A stretch of DNA of 64,000 nucleotides from Gloeobacter morelensis MG652769 (lineage in GTDB: Bacteria; Cyanobacteriota; Cyanobacteriia; Gloeobacterales; Gloeobacteraceae), in assembly GCF_021018745.1 (NCBI RefSeq), contig NZ_CP063845.1, positions 744,001 to 808,000 on the forward strand, in the 5' to 3' direction. Shown here one piece after another: positions 14,799 to 24,722 of the stretch; position 1 is the stretch's first letter, and the number at the start of each line of letters is the position of its first letter. Both the position numbers and the translations under genes were made by a program. The notes under the pieces are model-generated. The model saw only the letters and a list, made by a program, of their open reading frames with translations. It did no database searches and had not been told where the DNA came from.

Positions 14799-15335
14799 AT
14801 GAACAAGCCAATCGCTTCAAAATCTTCTTTTGCAGTCACAGCAGCGCTTTTGGCCGCTGGCTCATCGCTTTTGGCAGCGGGGATCACTTTTGCTGCGATC
14901 GACGACGATACTTACGAGGGCAGTGTTTTCTCACTCTACGGGAACAACGGTGCCCTTGTGCCGCCGCGCATCACGCTGGCCGAATCGATCCGCCGCCGTC
15001 AGCCGGCCCTGGTAATTCTCTATATCAACGACTCCCGCGATTGCAAAAAGCAGGCCTTCGACATCACCCAACTGCAGTCCCGCTTTGGCTCGCTGGTCAA
15101 TTTTATCGCTGTAAACGTCGACACCTTCCCACAGGACCAGCCGGACCTTCAAACCTACTTCCAGGGCGAGGTGCCCAAGCTGCTGCTCTTCGACCCGCGC
15201 GGCAAGCTCCTGTACGAGTCCACCGGCTACACCCCAGCCCGCACCGTCGAACCTTACTTCCGCAAACTCGTCACCAACCTCCCCGCCCGCTCAGCCCCCG
15301 CTCCTTTGGCACCGGCGATGCCGGCCCCGCCATAA
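14799..15335 (+). CDS. membrane-anchored/exported thioredoxin-fold protein
   Basis: 178-aa conserved cyanobacterial-type protein with an N-terminal hydrophobic segment (AVTAALLAAGSSLLAAGITFA), which is either a signal peptide or an anchor. The body is a thioredoxin fold: ALVILYINDSRDCKKQA, VNFIAVNVDTFP, VPKLLLFDPRGKLLYES with a cis-Pro before KLL. In place of CxxC there is SRDC, one cysteine only, so disulfide exchange in the usual way is unlikely. Proteins of this type have been linked to photosystem I accumulation; I recall this loosely and do not treat it as established here. A Pro/Ala-rich tail closes it. Confidence 0.68.
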   Translation: MNKPIASKSSFAVTAALLAAGSSLLAAGITFAAIDDDTYEGSVFSLYGNNGALVPPRITLAESIRRRQPALVILYINDSRDCKKQAFDITQLQSRFGSLVNFIAVNVDTFPQDQPDLQTYFQGEVPKLLLFDPRGKLLYESTGYTPARTVEPYFRKLVTNLPARSAPAPLAPAMPAPP

Positions 15336-15443: not shown

Positions 15444-15585
15444 TTTCATCTTGGCACCTGGCAGTTGGCTATGCACGACAGCGGGTGAGCGAGAGGCGGA
15501 ACCCCCTTCGGGTTCCCCTCTCGCGCTCTCCAACCTCCCCGCGTCGGGGGCGTGCCACCCCCCGACACCCCCTGGACTTAGCGGC
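15444..15585 (+). repeat. left copy of a ~145 bp inverted repeat
   Basis: This segment is the reverse complement of 18816-18962; positions 15473-15551 match 18848-18926 exactly over 79 bases and the flanks match with a few substitutions and single-base gaps. Inside is an imperfect hairpin at 15491-15522 (GAGAGGCGGAACCC / GGGTTCCCCTCTC). The rest of the 426-base gap 15336-15761 shows no gene or other recognisable element. Confidence 0.92.
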
Positions 15586-15761
15586 GCGGTAGGCGGGTGA
15601 CTCGGCCGGCGGGCTTGGCTCATGTTTTTAGTGCGTGCACGCTTTGCTTGGCGATTGCGGTAGGGTAGCTGGCGATCGGGCCGCTGAGGTGGTTGAGGGT
15701 AAGGTCGGGCAAAACTTGGTGGACTGGAAGTCAAACCAGTTGTCCATAGACCGACCTTAGG

Positions 15762-16907
15762 TCAGCCCAGCTTGCGCTTGCGAACCTGCCACGCCAGTAA
15801 GCCGAACGCGCTAAACATCGGAACCATAAACCCAGGCAGTGGCTCTGGTATTTCTTGGAAGAGGATGTCATCCGGGATACCTAAGCCACCGCTGCCTGTG
15901 GGTACAAATATTCCTTCAAACGCGCCAGTAGAACCGTTAAATTCAAAAATGCTATCTGTGTCAGTACTGGCCACATACAAGTTGCCATCAGGACCAAAAT
16001 CCAGACCAGTGGCACCACTCAGTCCATTCCCAGAAGCAAAAGTTCCAAGAAAAACACCGGTTACGCCATCATATTGATCTACTCGGCTGGACTGAAAATC
16101 ACCTGTGGTAATGAATAAATTTCCGTTTGGCCCAAAGACGAAATCAGCTGGGCTATCTAGGTTTGAAGTAAAGACGCCGAGGTAATTACCTAGGCTATCG
16201 AACCTTTGTATGGCTAAAGCTGCTTGGTCTATGACAAACAGATCTCCATTAAAAAATGTAATTTCACTTGGCCTCATTCCAGACAAAAAAGCAAAGTCTC
16301 TAATAAAAGAGCCGTTTAATGCACTAAACTCAAGAATCTTGCTGCTACTGGCATCTGCAACAAACAAGTTTCCAGTGCCAGAACCAAAGGAAATGCCACT
16401 TGGACTTGTTAAACCTCCACTGCCAAAAGGAATGAATTCCCTAAGAAAGTTGCCAGTGACGAGTTCGTATTCAAACACACCAGCGCCACCATTCTGGGTG
16501 ATAAATAGATTATTCGATGGGCCTCCAAAAGTCATTGAAGAGGGAAAAAAGAAGGAGTTGCCTTCGACGTAAGCCTCTATAAATGCACCTGTAGCACCGT
16601 TAAAACGGAGAACATCGTTTCCGCCAGCTCCAGACAGAACAAAAAAGTCTTCAATTGCAGTAGCGGAGCTAAAAAGTTTACTTTGGTCCCATTGTTGAAG
16701 GTTGGAACTAACTTCATCCAGTTCGATGTACCTAGCATAGTCTTCTTGATTTTTTAGAAGGCTAAGTTTCAAACTGGAAGCCATAAGCTCCGTATCGGTT
16801 TTCTCTAAATCAGCTAGGTCAAATCCAAAGGCAGAGGGGGAGAAAGGTGCGAACAATGACACAAAGCAACCAAGTAATGTGCCAAGCTTCGTACTTGCAA
16901 TTTTCAT
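15762..16907 (-). CDS. secreted beta-propeller protein with C-terminal sorting-type tail
   Basis: 381-aa exported protein. After a signal peptide (LGTLLGCFVSLFAPF) and a helical region, residues about 90-345 are repeats of the NHL/Vgb type with periodic blades such as GNLFVADASSSKILEF, GNLFITTGDFQSSRVDQY and GNLYVASTDTDSIFEF, giving about six blades. The C-terminus reads IPEPLPG, a hydrophobic stretch, then VRKRK, the arrangement of PEP-CTERM sorting signals. ATG at 16907 has AGGAAGGA just upstream and was preferred to 16928. Base composition is clearly more AT-rich than the surroundings. It is the last gene of a minor-pilin cluster; a cell-surface adhesin role is inferred. Confidence 0.75.
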   Translation of the reverse strand: MKIASTKLGTLLGCFVSLFAPFSPSAFGFDLADLEKTDTELMASSLKLSLLKNQEDYARYIELDEVSSNLQQWDQSKLFSSATAIEDFFVLSGAGGNDVLRFNGATGAFIEAYVEGNSFFFPSSMTFGGPSNNLFITQNGGAGVFEYELVTGNFLREFIPFGSGGLTSPSGISFGSGTGNLFVADASSSKILEFSALNGSFIRDFAFLSGMRPSEITFFNGDLFVIDQAALAIQRFDSLGNYLGVFTSNLDSPADFVFGPNGNLFITTGDFQSSRVDQYDGVTGVFLGTFASGNGLSGATGLDFGPDGNLYVASTDTDSIFEFNGSTGAFEGIFVPTGSGGLGIPDDILFQEIPEPLPGFMVPMFSAFGLLAWQVRKRKLG

Positions 16908-16977
16908 TTTGTCCTTCCTCAGTGGCATGCTCAGATAATCTCATATGTAATGTACAGCATTTGAGCAAAAAATGGAA

Positions 16978-17592
16978 TCATAATTCTACGAAACCAGCAT
17001 CTATAGAGTGCCATTCTCCGTTAAGCTGAAACCAAAACCGTATGGACCTATTACCAAGGCTTATCAGTTGAGCTTCAGAAACCCCATTCCAAGTAAAACG
17101 TTCAATCTGAATCCTTGGTTCATTTCCACCTAGACATTCCACTAGTGCTCCCTCGCCACGATATTGATGCGAAAAGGAAAGCTCTTTTAGTTCACGGTTG
17201 AATTCTATTCTTGTAATTCTGTCTTGTAAGCAGATTCCACTTTTGTTCATCAACGAAAATACGTGTGGAAACAGCTGATATGCGGCGGCCTTGTCGATAA
17301 TCCAAAGCCATCTAGCTGAATTGGTTGATTCAAAATTGAAACTGCCATTTATAGGGCCATTATTTTCAAAAGTTGCTGGATTATATTTCTTGAAATGCAT
17401 TCCATCAAGAGCTGGCGAAAGAGTCATTTTGATGTGATTTAACGATTCAGTTGAATACCTAGCCTCAGCAGTGCTGATGGATTCACCGACAAACATTAAA
17501 TAAAGGCTTAAACAGGTTGCTGAAGTCAATCCAAGCAACGGTATGCTGACAATGATCTCAGTAAAGCCTACTCCCCGTGTATTGCGCTTCAT
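16978..17592 (-). CDS. type IV pilin-like (pseudopilin) protein
   Basis: 204-aa protein with a prepilin peptidase site at the N-terminus: short basic leader MKRNTRGVG, then FTEIIVSIPLLGLTSATCLSL, where the Phe after Gly and the Glu at +5 of the mature hydrophobic helix are the class III signal hallmark. The soluble part (about 170 residues) is beta-rich and unfamiliar. It starts 2 bases after the stop of the preceding gene, so the group is one operon. Codon use is AT-rich compared with the window. Minor pilin or type II secretion pseudopilin are both possible. Confidence 0.72.
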   Translation of the reverse strand: MKRNTRGVGFTEIIVSIPLLGLTSATCLSLYLMFVGESISTAEARYSTESLNHIKMTLSPALDGMHFKKYNPATFENNGPINGSFNFESTNSARWLWIIDKAAAYQLFPHVFSLMNKSGICLQDRITRIEFNRELKELSFSHQYRGEGALVECLGGNEPRIQIERFTWNGVSEAQLISLGNRSIRFWFQLNGEWHSIDAGFVEL

Positions 17593-17594
17593 GA

Positions 17595-18014
17595 TTAAAC
17601 TCTAGTCCTTAATGTAGTTACTGTCCTGCTCCGAGTTGCAATTCTAGTAAATGGGTCATAAGCTCCAGTCACCACAGCATTATTGTTGGTGGATTGGTTT
17701 CCTGACGTCTGCTCTTGGGGGCGTGCTGTTGTCCAATAGCGAATGATTGAGTATTCGTCTCTAACCTCAGGCTTGCTGAGAACAAACACACTAAGCCCTG
17801 ATGGTGAAAACTCCTGTTGCAATTGCTCACCTCCGATATTGTCTGCTGCTGCAACCATAGCTGTTCGTAAGGCACTTTTAAGTACAGATTTCTCAATGAT
17901 CTGATCCGCAAAAGCTCTGGCATCGTTGTAATGATTTTGACTATTGATACTGGTGGCAGTCATCATCGGAATGACCAGTATCAGCAACAACAGGCAGATA
18001 ATTACGGAGGGCAT
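17595..18014 (-). CDS. single-pass exported protein in minor-pilin operon
   Basis: 139-aa protein with one N-terminal hydrophobic segment (VIICLLLLILVIPMMTA) and a polar extracytoplasmic part. It lacks the Gly-Phe-x-x-x-Glu prepilin site of its neighbours. The start codon ATG at 18014 overlaps the end of the upstream pilin-like gene by 13 bases and has GGAG in front. Position between two pilin-like genes suggests a PilX/GspK-like partner, but I cannot assign a family. AT-rich composition. Confidence 0.6.
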   Translation of the reverse strand: MPSVIICLLLLILVIPMMTATSINSQNHYNDARAFADQIIEKSVLKSALRTAMVAAADNIGGEQLQQEFSPSGLSVFVLSKPEVRDEYSIIRYWTTARPQEQTSGNQSTNNNAVVTGAYDPFTRIATRSRTVTTLRTRV

Positions 18015-18565
18015 TGGCGCGAATCTCCAATGATGTACATCAGATGTGAACCGCTCTCTTTAGGGCCTGTTAATAGATAGCTGAAAAGTACTGGCGAGTC
18101 GCTGAGTTTGCGGTCGTAGGGTTCGTTCATCAGGATGCCGCCCGTCTGGCCGCTGCCTTCGTAAATGGATAGCGCGGGTGTCTCGACAGCAGCCTGCGCA
18201 AATAGCGCCTGAATTTCTTCAGGTGAGCGATTGTTCACAGCCACTAGGCCAGCGGGCTTCACGCACCCTTGAAATTCAACGCTGACAAACTCTTTGGTGC
18301 TCTCAGGCGTGAGCGGATAGCTCCCGGCGAGGCTGGTGGCCTGGAAGGCCGGATTGTCCCAGTTGTTGGCTGTTTGCTCGCTGGCTAGCTGGTCGAAATA
18401 GTCGATAAACTCGGCAAAACGCATGACGGTCTGTCCTTTCAGTACGCTTTCGCGCGTGGCCACCGTGACTGCCGTTAACCCGCCGATGCCCGCCAGGATT
18501 GCCGTCGCCACCAGGATGCCGATCAAAGATTCTCCGCGCGTTGTGCGTACAGGTAGTGTGCCCAC
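18002..18565 (-). CDS. PilV-like minor pilin
   Basis: 187-aa protein with prepilin leader VRTTRG and mature helix ESLIGILVATAILAGIGGLTAV, the form seen in PilV/PilI-type minor pilins (Glu directly after Gly). The soluble domain has two cysteines (FQGCVKP and the C-terminal RQCPP) that could pair. Unlike the next two genes its GC content is near the window average. The GTG start at 18565 is weakly supported. It is first in the four-gene minus-strand cluster that ends with the beta-propeller gene. Confidence 0.7.
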   Translation of the reverse strand: MGTLPVRTTRGESLIGILVATAILAGIGGLTAVTVATRESVLKGQTVMRFAEFIDYFDQLASEQTANNWDNPAFQATSLAGSYPLTPESTKEFVSVEFQGCVKPAGLVAVNNRSPEEIQALFAQAAVETPALSIYEGSGQTGGILMNEPYDRKLSDSPVLFSYLLTGPKESGSHLMYIIGDSRQCPP

Positions 18566-18815
18566 TGTGCCCAGGAGCCGGGAACAACCCGATTAAATTC
18601 CATTCTTGGGAAATTTGCAAGCGGCAGTGCCAGGTTTCGGGTCTCAGGGAAAACTATTGCCCATCTGTCCCGTGTACCCTTTGTTTACACCGCCTAACTC
18701 TCCGAGATATTCGCAGCCCAGCGGCGAGCAAGCCTTCGTGGCGCAGTCGACACGCATCGTGCAGGCTCTACGAAGAATAAACCCAGCCCACCCGCCAATT
18801 CTCGTGCTTCTCCGT

Positions 18816-18962
18816 GCCGCTAAGTCCGGGGGTGTCGGGGGCTGGCAGCCCCCGACGCGGGGAGGTTGGAGAGCGCGAGAGGGGAACCCGAAGGGGGTTC
18901 CGCCTCTCGCTCACCCGCTGTCGTGCCAAGCCAACTGCCAGGTCTCAGGCCCCAGGATGAAG
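18816..18962 (-). repeat. right copy of the ~145 bp inverted repeat
   Basis: Reverse-complement partner of 15444-15585, with 79 identical bases at 18848-18926. It contains the same internal hairpin. The 479-base gap 18566-19044 in which it lies holds no convincing gene; the remaining sequence shows nothing recognisable. Confidence 0.92.
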
Positions 18963-19044: not shown

Positions 19045-19887
19045 ATGCCTTATCTAGAAATCGACGGCACCAGGCACTTTTACACCCTGAGCGGCCAACC
19101 CAAGCCGGAGCGGGTGCCGCTGGTGCTGGTGCACGGCTGGTGCGGTTCGTCGCGCTACTGGGAACCTGTCGCTGAGACCTGGGCAGAGAGGACCGTGTGT
19201 CTGCGCTACGATCTGCGCGGGTTCGGGCAATCTCCCTTGACCCCCGAGTCGAGCCAGGATTTTTCACTGGAAGCTTATAGCCGCGAACTGCTGGCCCTCA
19301 TCGACCGGCTCGGGTTCGAGCGCATCGACCTCAACGCCCACTCGATGGGAGCCTCGATCGGCCTGGCCTTTGCCAATTTGTTCCCTGAGCGCGTGCGCAA
19401 GCTGGTGCTCACCTGCACCGGCGTCTTTCAGTACGAAGCTCTGCTGTTCGAGACGTTTTATCTGGCAAGCAACGTGGTGATCGCCGTGCGGCCTGCCTGG
19501 ATGGTGAATTTTGCCGTCGCCCGCAAAGCCTTTCAGCGGCGGTTCGTCTACAAGTTGCTCGAAGATCGCTGGGCACGGCTGTTTATCGAAGACTACGTCG
19601 TCGCTCACCAGGCAGCCGCACGGGGGACGCTCTACAGTTCGATTGGCAAACACGCCACCTATGAAATGCCCGACGCTTTTCGCAAACTCGCGGCGCCGAC
19701 TTTGCTGATTAGCGGTGAGTACGACCAGATTATTCCCGCAGCAGGAGCAAGGCGGGCAGTAGAAATCAATCCCGATCTGACGCTGAAAATCATTCCCCAG
19801 ACGGGACATTTTCCGATGCTCGAAGCGCCCAGTGCCTACCTGGAGTCGATGAACAGCTTCCTGGAATCCCCCGGATCCGGGGCTTAA
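19045..19887 (+). CDS. alpha/beta hydrolase
   Basis: 280-aa hydrolase with strand-turn LVLVHGWCGSSRYW (oxyanion HG), YDLRGFGQS, the nucleophile elbow NAHSMGASIG, the acid in ISGEYDQIIP and catalytic His in PQTGHFPMLEAP. The canonical triad is complete. Spacing fits small-molecule esterases, epoxide hydrolases or haloperoxidase-like enzymes; the substrate cannot be assigned. It begins shortly after the right repeat copy and runs towards the Rrf2 gene with a 59-base gap. Confidence 0.83.
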   Translation: MPYLEIDGTRHFYTLSGQPKPERVPLVLVHGWCGSSRYWEPVAETWAERTVCLRYDLRGFGQSPLTPESSQDFSLEAYSRELLALIDRLGFERIDLNAHSMGASIGLAFANLFPERVRKLVLTCTGVFQYEALLFETFYLASNVVIAVRPAWMVNFAVARKAFQRRFVYKLLEDRWARLFIEDYVVAHQAAARGTLYSSIGKHATYEMPDAFRKLAAPTLLISGEYDQIIPAAGARRAVEINPDLTLKIIPQTGHFPMLEAPSAYLESMNSFLESPGSGA

Positions 19888-21347: not shown

Positions 21348-21625
21348 GGGCGGACCATATTCGAACTGCGCAGAGCACAGCTGCTTGCCAGTAGTCGCGT
21401 CACACCTGCGATGTTCAAGCACTCTTGTGAACACCGGGTACATCAGAACGGGCGCAGCGCGTGAACCTTTGACCGTGTATCCCGGTGCTTGTGTTGCAAA
21501 TACGGTAGCCAATCCCTACTGAGAGGAATGGGGTGTTTGTTGGCGCAAGGCCCCCTGTCTGCTCCCGCAAGCTTCCCGTCGGCTGCGCTTTGTGCCCCTT
21601 GAAGAGGTTTTGCCAGGAGGAAACG

Positions 21626-22204
21626 ATGCCCAACAATAATAATGACAAAGATAACGGCAACGGCAACGGCAACGACGATACCACCGGGAATCTGTCCCAT
21701 GAGGAAAACGGCCACGAGCCGGATCCCAAACCCGCCGGGGGGACACCGACGGACGACGAGTTGGGAGGCGAGACCGAGAATCCCCAAAATTTCAGCGAAG
21801 AGCCCTTGCCCGACCAGGGCGCGTGGGGCTTCGAGATGCCGGATTGGCTAGATCCGAGCGACGGCGATATTTTTGGGATGGACAACAGCGCCGCTGCGCT
21901 GGTTGGCGGTACTTTGGCCGCCGGGGCGCTGGCCCTATCCGGCGCCGGTGCTCTGGCGGCTGGCGGTGCCCTGGCCACCGGTGTGGTGATGGGTCTGGGG
22001 GACGAAATGCTGTTTGACCAGCAAGGCGAGTCCGTCGAGGCTTCGACCGACGGCGTCGAGGCAATAGCAACCGAGGTCGGCATTGGCGAAGACCCCGAGG
22101 GCACCTTTGTACCCGAGGACGGTCTCCAGGAGGATCTCGACTTCTACGCCGAAGGCCCTCAATTCTACGCTGAGGAGGATGCGCAGTACGGCGAGAACGC
22201 CTGA
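21626..22204 (+). CDS. acidic protein with central Gly/Ala-rich hydrophobic segment, unknown function
   Basis: 192-aa protein that I do not recognise. The first 90 residues are Asn/Asp/Gly/Pro-rich and unstructured in look. A 37-residue hydrophobic Gly-Ala stretch follows (ALVGGTLAAGALALSGAGAL and onwards to GVVMGLG), then a strongly acidic tail with repeated FYAE/QFYAEED. AGGAGG at 21615-21620, 5 bases before the ATG, makes translation likely. The middle could span a membrane as a helical hairpin with glycine-zipper packing. The upstream 278-base gap contains an imperfect hairpin (CACCGGG near 21432 with CCCGGTG near 21481). It stands alone, ending 29 bases before the convergent protease gene. 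Confidence 0.6.
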   Translation: MPNNNNDKDNGNGNGNDDTTGNLSHEENGHEPDPKPAGGTPTDDELGGETENPQNFSEEPLPDQGAWGFEMPDWLDPSDGDIFGMDNSAAALVGGTLAAGALALSGAGALAAGGALATGVVMGLGDEMLFDQQGESVEASTDGVEAIATEVGIGEDPEGTFVPEDGLQEDLDFYAEGPQFYAEEDAQYGENA

Positions 22205-22233: not shown

Positions 22234-24642
22234 CTAGCTGCGGGTAATATCTGCCGGAGCGGCATAGATTTTTTTGAGCGTCTCGATATCGCGCGGCGAT
22301 GGTTCGCTCAGCCCGCTCACCCTGGCAAACATGATGTCATCGATGTTGTCGCTGTGCCCCCACAGCCCGATGGCGTGCCCAAATTCGTGTACCGCCACCA
22401 TCTCCAGCCATTTGAGGCGCTCCTGCGGCTGGAACATGTTTGCTGGGCGCAAATTCAACTCGATCGTCGGGGCCGGCAAGCGATTTTCAAAGGCGCGGGG
22501 ATTGAAGTTGAACGGTCGACGATCGGCAAAGCCCGCAATATCGCCTTTGTTACTGGCGGTGAAGACGACGACGATGTCCGCATCGGTGGGCCGCTCGACT
22601 TTCTCAAATTGAACAAGGCCATCGCTGGCAGTTTGCCATTTAAGCGCCGCGTTCCAGGTCAGTTCGGCAAAAGCCGGGTCCGGAGCCGCTCCAAGGTAGA
22701 CCTTGATGGGCATCCGTGACATACGGACCACCACGGCTTTGCGGGTGCGATTGGTACTGCTGCCAATTGAAATCCACGCATCGTAATCATACCGGCACGC
22801 TTCAAAATAGTCCCCGGCGGCAGGCTTGCCCGGTTCTTTGGCCACCAGAACGGTAGCCCCGGCGGGGTAATCGAGCAAGTTGAGGCCGTACAGTTCGGCG
22901 CGCTGACGCAGGTACGCTATCTGTTCACTACTCAATGCGCCGCCACTGTCGGCGATGAGCGCCGCGTATGCGCTTCCCAACAGCGCCACGCCGCTGGACA
23001 CCGATGTGCGCAGGCGCAGGGCCGGCTCCAGATAGCGGATGGCGGCGGGAGCGTCGTCGAGAAGCAGCATTTGCCTCGCCTGCTGTTCATAGACCCAACC
23101 GAGCACTTCGCGTCCTTCGCGCGAGGGAAATAAAGACAGCGACAGCAGCAGCCCTGCACCGGCCTCCTCCCAGCGTTGGGCGGTGGCGGCGGACACAGCC
23201 TGGTTGTAAGCTGCCAGGGCGCGTTTCTCGTCGCGGGCCGTCGCAAGGGGCACCGGCGGCAGGGCCGTTTCGAGGGGCAGGGGCGTCGCTTTTGCTGCAG
23301 GTTTCGACAGCGCCACAGGCTTCGACAGTCGCACCCCGACCACCTGATCTTGAAAGAGCGTCGAAGCAAACGCGCTGACAAAACCAGAGGAGCGCTCGAT
23401 GAGCAATTCGCGGGTGGGCAGCACGTCCGATTCGCCTTCAGTCGCCGTTTCGGCAATCGATTCGAGCACCAGCCGATGACCAAAGGGCGGGGCTGTGACC
23501 AGTTTGCCGCGCACGGCCGCACCGGCGCGGATCAAGGTCAGGCCGTTACCGTCGAGGATGTCGTAGAGGATGGCACCGCTCACCGGACGGGTCGTGCCCT
23601 GCTGGACTCCGACGTCTTCTTTTTGATCGAGCCGCACGGCCAGATAGGTGCCCGCGGGCACCCGCACGGGGGTATCGCGCCAGGCGGGCTGAGCCACTTC
23701 GACCGCGAGTTGCTCACCGCCTGCAACCGCCCGCCAGGAGCGCTCCGGGTCGGGGGCTTCAACCTGAACACTGGCGCTGCGCACCCCAGCGGTCGCCATT
23801 TGGCGCAAAAAGGCGGCGGTTCGCTCCCGCAGCAAGGCCTGCTCCGCTAACGGACCGACGGCTAGGGACAGCCCATCGGTCGCAGGTTTTACCGACAATA
23901 CATTACCCCAACCGAAGTACCGCTCCGCCAGAGCGGAGGGAGCCACCTCCAGCGGCTGAAGTCTGGCAACCCTGGGGGGCGGCTCGCCAAGTTCGGTCGC
24001 GGGCATAGCAGCCAGGTTCCCCGACAACGGTAACGGTACCTCCAATTCCTCACCCTCGCGCCGAATCTTGAGCTTGACGACATCGCCGCCCTGGCGATTG
24101 GCCAGCAGGGGAACGATATCGCGCAGGCGGGCGACAGCCTTGCCGTCGATGGCCACAAGCAGGTCGCCGTGCCGCAAAGCGGCATTGCGCGCCTGCTCGG
24201 TGCTGGCGCCCATCAAGACGACGCGCTGCGGACGGTCGCCCGAGGCAGGCAATTCGCGCATAGTCAAGCCCAGAAATGCCCGGCGCAACTCAGCGCTCGA
24301 TCGCACCACCCGGCCGCCCTGCAGGTGCAGGCGCACCTCGACGGCAGGGGCAGCCGCCTCAACGGGCAGCGCCGGGAAGGGCGCCACTTTACTCAGGCTC
24401 TCGTAGAGACGCCCGGTCAATCCGGGTTGCGATGGGTCCGGCTCTTCGACGCTGATCCCGCCCAACCAACCGGCACGACTGACCCGCACCCGCACCACCA
24501 GATTCTGCTGAGCACCGGGGCTCCATTTGTCTTTCAGCTGGGACTCAAACTTGGCAAGCCACCCGTCCAGGTTCGACTCGGCTAGAACCGGCGCACAGCA
24601 GCTCAACCCACCCACCAGTACAAGCAATAAAAGACGATACAT
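22234..24642 (-). CDS. exported TonB_C-like / PDZ / matrixin-type metalloprotease
   Basis: 802-aa exported protein with an unusual domain set. Signal peptide MYRLLLLVLVGGLSCCAPVLA may be a lipoprotein signal. Residues about 25-110 resemble a TonB C-terminal domain (KWSPGAQQNLVVRVRV). Residues about 145-205 are a PDZ domain (GASTEQARNAALRHGDLLVAIDGKAVARL). After a long beta region and TPR-like helices, the C-terminus has HEFGHAIGLWGHSDNIDDIM, the HExxHxxGxxGH zinc site plus Met-turn of M10 matrixins. An ATG at 24663 is an alternative start. Function is likely proteolysis in the periplasm or outside the cell; the target is unknown. Confidence 0.8.
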   Translation of the reverse strand: MYRLLLLVLVGGLSCCAPVLAESNLDGWLAKFESQLKDKWSPGAQQNLVVRVRVSRAGWLGGISVEEPDPSQPGLTGRLYESLSKVAPFPALPVEAAAPAVEVRLHLQGGRVVRSSAELRRAFLGLTMRELPASGDRPQRVVLMGASTEQARNAALRHGDLLVAIDGKAVARLRDIVPLLANRQGGDVVKLKIRREGEELEVPLPLSGNLAAMPATELGEPPPRVARLQPLEVAPSALAERYFGWGNVLSVKPATDGLSLAVGPLAEQALLRERTAAFLRQMATAGVRSASVQVEAPDPERSWRAVAGGEQLAVEVAQPAWRDTPVRVPAGTYLAVRLDQKEDVGVQQGTTRPVSGAILYDILDGNGLTLIRAGAAVRGKLVTAPPFGHRLVLESIAETATEGESDVLPTRELLIERSSGFVSAFASTLFQDQVVGVRLSKPVALSKPAAKATPLPLETALPPVPLATARDEKRALAAYNQAVSAATAQRWEEAGAGLLLSLSLFPSREGREVLGWVYEQQARQMLLLDDAPAAIRYLEPALRLRTSVSSGVALLGSAYAALIADSGGALSSEQIAYLRQRAELYGLNLLDYPAGATVLVAKEPGKPAAGDYFEACRYDYDAWISIGSSTNRTRKAVVVRMSRMPIKVYLGAAPDPAFAELTWNAALKWQTASDGLVQFEKVERPTDADIVVVFTASNKGDIAGFADRRPFNFNPRAFENRLPAPTIELNLRPANMFQPQERLKWLEMVAVHEFGHAIGLWGHSDNIDDIMFARVSGLSEPSPRDIETLKKIYAAPADITRS

Positions 24643-24722
24643 CGTGATTGCATAACCTTTCATTTATTACTATGGAGCAGTGCCGCCGGTTTATGCACGT
24701 CAAGATTCGTCGGTCGTTCAGG

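Follow-up and report, generated by a model that had tools for sequence, protein, structure and literature searches.

The four minus-strand genes located between a thioredoxin-like gene and a hydrolase gene in the analysed window (the whole 64-kb stretch of DNA, positions 744001–808000 of the main contig of the Gloeobacter morelensis genome, 5.10 Mb in 3 contigs, below G000) probably constitute a minor-pilin operon of the type IV pilus tip that is specific to the family Gloeobacteraceae and whose outer half has been exchanged by recombination. This reading is drawn from comparison with the relatives G001 (of the same genus), G002, G003, G004, and G005, the assemblies of G002 and G004 being fragmented drafts. 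It leaves the view of the gene set given in the initial annotation broadly right, adds to it the modular structure of the operon with an exchanged outer half, and finds no support for the role that had been ascribed there to the bracketing repeats.

The locus is flanked by two conserved plus-strand genes assigned by Pfam scan and synteny, the thioredoxin-like gene trx on the left (14799–15335) and the alpha/beta hydrolase gene abh on the right (19045–19887). Between them, the minus strand encodes a PilV-like prepilin of 187 aa (18002–18565), a single-pass partner of 139 aa that is PilX-like by position (17595–18014) and whose start overlaps the 3′ end of the pilV-like gene, a PilW-like prepilin of 204 aa (16978–17592), and a secreted NHL-type beta-propeller of 388 aa (15762–16928). 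The labels pilV, pilX, and pilW were given by position and appearance and imply no orthology to the Pseudomonas genes. The GC content is 57% for pilV, 44.5% for pilX, 40.5% for pilW, and 44% for the propeller gene, and 61% for the whole window; promoter and terminator scans at the locus remained at chance level.

Both PilW and PilV carry the RG leader and hydrophobic N-terminus typical of prepilins (MKRNTRG/VGFTEIIV... and TTRG/ESLIGILVATAILAG, respectively); Glu, the usual residue at +5 of prepilins, is found there in the four full PilW N-termini of the ortholog alignment and is absent from this position in PilV, and the N-terminus of PilX is hydrophobic and has no prepilin leader. Only four to five sequences were available per protein family. 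No pilin family of Pfam or NCBIfam was matched by the PilV, PilX, and PilW proteins of the window, and the PilV ortholog of G005 scored 19.2 bits against N_methyl (PF07963), just under the cut-off of 21.2. The AlphaFold models of PilW and PilV were poor (mean pLDDT of 48.8 and 51.9), and a Foldseek search with the weak PilW model gave no meaningful matches.

The propeller, which starts with a signal-like N-terminus, matched the Pfam NHL family (E 7e-6, 26.2 bits, cut-off 20) and, among PDB profiles, WD40/NHL propellers (best 3e-16). As regards PilY1 (PF05567), the Pfam scan of this protein gave NHL instead, and the search of all six genomes with PF05567 found no match, the control genomes being silent as well. 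Since its match is to NHL and not to PilY1, the propeller may at best act like PilY1 and is not classified as one. The xPEP-hydrophobic-basic tail at its C-terminus is kept in 5/5 orthologs, and exosortase is encoded in 6/6 genomes; however, no PEP-CTERM HMM of Pfam or NCBIfam matched the protein, so its sorting by exosortase is only a guess. Apart from this missing HMM match, the gene labels proposed earlier (a PilV-like pilin, a single-pass partner, a pseudopilin, and a secreted propeller with a PEP-CTERM-like tail) are retained.

The distribution of these genes is narrow. Among 59 relatives searched for pilW, five genomes proved to carry it, and a separate scan of genome contigs with pilW gave no match; of 388 genomes sampled across the class, 5 contained pilW and 6 contained pilV, all of them belonging to Gloeobacteraceae. 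The propeller likewise has orthologs in five genomes. G000, G001, and G003, all of the genus, have the four genes side by side in one order: in G001 the set occupies the same site as in G000, between the thioredoxin-like and hydrolase genes and with both repeats present, and in G003 it lies at another site, without repeats. In G002, the original site (site A, beside the hydrolase gene and its repeat, in a rearranged neighbourhood) has kept pilV (91%) and pilX (90%) and has lost pilW and the propeller gene; site B carries a shortened pilV-pilX fusion followed by intact pilW and propeller genes, as an insertion of approximately 2.8 kb that G000 and G001 lack. In G004, pilV-pilX and pilW-propeller are located on different contigs, the start of pilW apparently being at the end of a third one. 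G005 has pilV-pilX behind a cluster in which two more prepilin-like genes are found; pilW and the propeller gene were both searched for and are absent, and the flanking trx and abh genes are adjacent, forming an empty site.

So, pilX follows a pilV-like gene in all of G000–G005, pilW and the propeller gene are adjacent in all of G000–G004, and pilV-pilX stands without a neighbouring pilW in G004, in G005, and at site A of G002; the operon therefore consists of two two-gene modules, pilV-pilX and pilW-propeller. The search of other genomes for the four-gene set, which the initial annotation had proposed as a check, thus found it co-conserved: whole in three genomes, with the modules apart in two, and with pilV-pilX alone in the sixth. 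The conserved order in three genomes, the recurrence of the modules, and the prepilin cluster of G005 also support the proposed surface pilus module, as far as sequence allows. The G005 cluster (L090, 80–4789) contains prepilins, two PilMN/PilO-like genes (recognised by eye, with no Pfam support), and a 407-aa secreted protein, followed by pilV-pilX, and may represent the older context of this module. At the trx site of G002 (L062, 396–8564), a polyketide-synthase-like cluster comes after trx and its repeat; it ends in thioesterase-like and phosphopantetheinyl-transferase-like genes and lies elsewhere in G000 and G001; this junction is possibly an error of the draft assembly.

Minor pilins are known to initiate pilus assembly and to stay at the tip, which is completed by PilY1, a protein that is secreted and contains a propeller domain (PMC7541494, PMC13190605), and a full set of pil and com genes has been reported for G. 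violaceus (PMC7690421). By analogy with these minor-pilin/PilY1 tip complexes, the pilV-pilX pair could be the conserved base of a priming complex that takes part in pilus assembly, and the pilW-propeller pair would form its outer end, contacting a ligand or surface, with the propeller as the putative adhesin. The main competing view is that the minor pilins prime a filament for secretion or DNA uptake, i.e., a secretion or competence pseudopilus, the propeller being an unrelated, co-transcribed envelope protein of the PEP-CTERM type. Minor pilins do serve DNA uptake in other cyanobacteria (PMC12288463), the PEP-like tail of the propeller suggests exosortase sorting, and its best NCBIfam matches, far below the cut-off, were secreted proteins of the ScyF/ScyE type. 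At the same time, pilW and the propeller gene accompany each other wherever one of them occurs, and do so at several genomic sites, which argues for a joint function and makes the pseudopilus rather unlikely.

The two modules also differ in their history. Compared with the syntenic region of G001, the window is approximately 96% identical at the nucleotide level on both flanks, whereas in the tract that starts with the stop codon of trx (15336) and reaches the 3′ end of pilX (approximately 17700; both bounds are approximate and taken from the identity profile), which covers pilW, the propeller gene, and the left repeat, the identity drops to approximately 60%; from pilX-pilV onward to the hydrolase gene, it is mostly 78–96%. 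Four-fold synonymous sites were counted at identical residues between G000 and G001 and compared with those of the flanking genes by Fisher tests. Unchanged sites amounted to 547/618 (89%) in the four flanking genes, 70/95 in pilV, and 37/57 in pilX, against only 15/38 (39%, p 8e-12) in pilW and 26/107 (24%, p 8e-42) in the propeller gene. An unchanged fraction near one quarter corresponds to saturation, and the pilW and propeller alleles must therefore have split long before the species did. Pairwise identity of PilW is 48–51% for all combinations of G000, G001, and G002, and the flanking proteins of G000 and G001 are 93–98% identical. The pilW-propeller tract has thus been replaced by an anciently diverged allele.

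Very rapid evolution of pilW and the propeller gene in place under positive selection, with no exchange at all, would account for the low identity of PilW (48% against 93–98% for the flanking proteins), and surface proteins often evolve fast. However, selection on amino acids alone leaves four-fold sites unsaturated, and the divergence begins abruptly at the trx stop and ends just as abruptly at the 3′ end of pilX; the near-saturated sites point to replacement and not to fast mutation, so that this explanation appears highly improbable. Two observations were made in the neighbourhood. The gene at 21533–22204 encodes a charged, low-complexity protein of 223 aa that is 65–66% identical to its G001 and G002 counterparts, the neighbouring genes being 97–99% identical, and appears to be another fast or exchanged gene near the locus. 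Next to it, beside plsX, the gene at 22234–24663 encodes a protein of 809 aa in which an HExxH-like metalloprotease motif is present; no counterpart was found at this place in G001 and G002, and one that is 41% identical adjoins plsX in G003.

Replacement of the outer half of a tip operon can be envisaged as follows. The outer pair, being exposed, would be under pressure to vary, and homologous recombination would exchange it, with homology arms provided by trx on one side and by the conserved pilX/pilV on the other; closely related species would then come to carry anciently diverged pilW-propeller alleles. The intermediate values for pilX and pilV would reflect repeated exchange with varying end points. 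The right repeats of G000, G001, and G002 group together, as do the left repeats of G001 and G002, and the G000 left repeat falls outside the latter group, as expected if the tract had come with its own left repeat; import of both into the G000 lineage fits these groupings, re-insertion being the alternative. More tentatively, and with somewhat less than even confidence, the locus can be regarded as a hitherto undescribed, lineage-restricted tip whose inner pair is fixed and whose outer pair belongs to a pool of ancient alleles swapped as a unit between species; this swapping is perhaps driven by phage or partner recognition.

The repeats that had drawn attention to the locus have turned out to be a separate matter. 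The core arms, 15456–15589 (plus strand) and 18812–18943 (minus strand), are identical in 128 of 134 alignment columns (96%, with 2 gap columns; E 5e-58 within the window) and form the only inverted pair of at least 40 nt in the 64-kb window. The inverted pair was therefore described correctly at the outset, and the long run of identity counted there (79 bases) can be seen in this alignment. The gene calls likewise bear out that the pair encloses exactly four minus-strand genes; the copies, put at approximately 145 bp, are longer, extending with their diverged ends over about 15456–15641 and 18739–18943. The left arm has at least 40 matches in G000 (E <1e-29, the best 40 of 87 candidates scored), and at least 40 copies are present in each of G001 and G002, the numbers across the three genomes being at least 40–48 per genome, as lower bounds; no copies were detected with the left arm in G003, G004, or G005. 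A 22-nt core pattern occurred 44 times in G000 and 45 times in G001, whereas its reversed control was found once and not at all, respectively. Alignment of 56 copies revealed a conserved unit of approximately 210 nt with two GC-rich hairpins and no obvious terminal inverted repeat in the consensus, and Rfam gave no match over the repeat region.

Repeat pairs no more than 6.5 kb apart are mostly inverted (5 inverted to 1 direct in G000 and 7 to 0 in G001; approximately 10 to 1, p ~0.01, when shared loci are counted once by hand) and occur in both head-to-head and tail-to-tail order. The simplest account of this excess would be that recombination removes the segments flanked by direct copies and leaves inverted pairs standing. 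The genes inside the other inverted pairs are unrelated (P450, MscL, histidine kinase and other kinases, ABC transporter, GST), and at several repeat-pair loci, G000, G001, and G002 are collinear and each retain both repeats; the copies must therefore be old and, for the most part, static. Two further ideas were abandoned: that repeat pairs bracket variable gene content elsewhere, as pairwise alignments gave the same content in G000, G001, and G002 (L051/L057/L061 and L050/L060), and that the rearrangement at the trx site of G002 was joined through repeats, as the matching regions of G000 and G001 have no repeat at the joins. Given the dozens of dispersed copies, the unrelated genes in other pairs, and the repeat-free four-gene sets in relatives, the repeats are independent dispersed intergenic elements and not cassette borders. 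Of the two outcomes that the initial annotation had named as speaking against its cassette, the presence of the repeat at many unrelated sites was observed, and a lack of co-conservation of the genes was not.

The suggestion that a composite transposable unit is delimited by the two repeats could draw on the different sites of the cassette in G000/G001, G002 (site B), G003, and G004, on the empty site of G005, and on the insertion of approximately 2.8 kb at G002 site B. However, it is largely refuted already by operon copies without adjoining repeats at other sites (G002 site B and G003, where the repeat family is itself undetected), none of the four genes encodes a transposase, and the grouping of the right-arm copies of three species indicates that they are static; we consider such a unit extremely unlikely. 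Inversion of 15590–18811 by homologous recombination between the arms as a switch of operon expression is likewise extremely unlikely. In its favour, arms of 134 nt with 96% identity would suffice for RecA-dependent inversion, they enclose the whole operon, and close pairs are mostly inverted. Against it, G000 and G001, which alone have the full repeat pair, show the segment in a single orientation, inverted pairs of both orders enclose many unrelated genes, the operons of G003 and G002 site B lack adjoining repeats, and segment loss between direct copies explains the inverted excess equally well.

If the proposed tip operon with an exchanged outer half is real, an early-branching cyanobacterial lineage possesses a two-module pilus tip with an exchangeable recognition half, the parallel evolution of a minor-pilin and propeller arrangement with an unrelated propeller becomes testable, and the operon is a clear example, taken from nature, of an allele being replaced at a surface locus of environmental bacteria. 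The dispersed repeat is, in this respect, ordinary. Like REP families and Nezha-type MITEs (PMC3733652), it is short, hairpin-rich, and present in tens of copies in both orientations; it differs from them in its unit of approximately 210 nt with two strong hairpins, in the lack of clear terminal inverted repeats and of an Rfam match, and in its detection only in three sister species among the six genomes searched. No published description of it was found in the literature searched.

Among known systems, small operons of divergent minor pilins are shared with other cyanobacteria, where sets such as PilA5-6, PilA9-12, the hps-cluster pilins, and PilA3/PilW/RntAB have condition-specific roles according to the part of the source consulted, which does not mention an NHL propeller for them (PMC12288463). 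The Gloeobacter operon appears to differ from these sets in this respect, and its pilW and pilV families were found only in Gloeobacteraceae among the 388 genomes sampled from the class. The fimU-pilV-pilW-pilX-pilY1 operons of Pseudomonas and Myxococcus likewise combine several minor prepilins and a secreted beta-propeller in one cluster, and the tip component of these systems varies between copies and lineages (PMC7541494, PMC13190605). In contrast to them, the Gloeobacter set has three pilin-like genes where those operons have at least four, shows no detectable sequence relation, carries an NHL-type propeller of 388 aa with a PEP-like tail and no PF05567 match, and splits into two separable modules.
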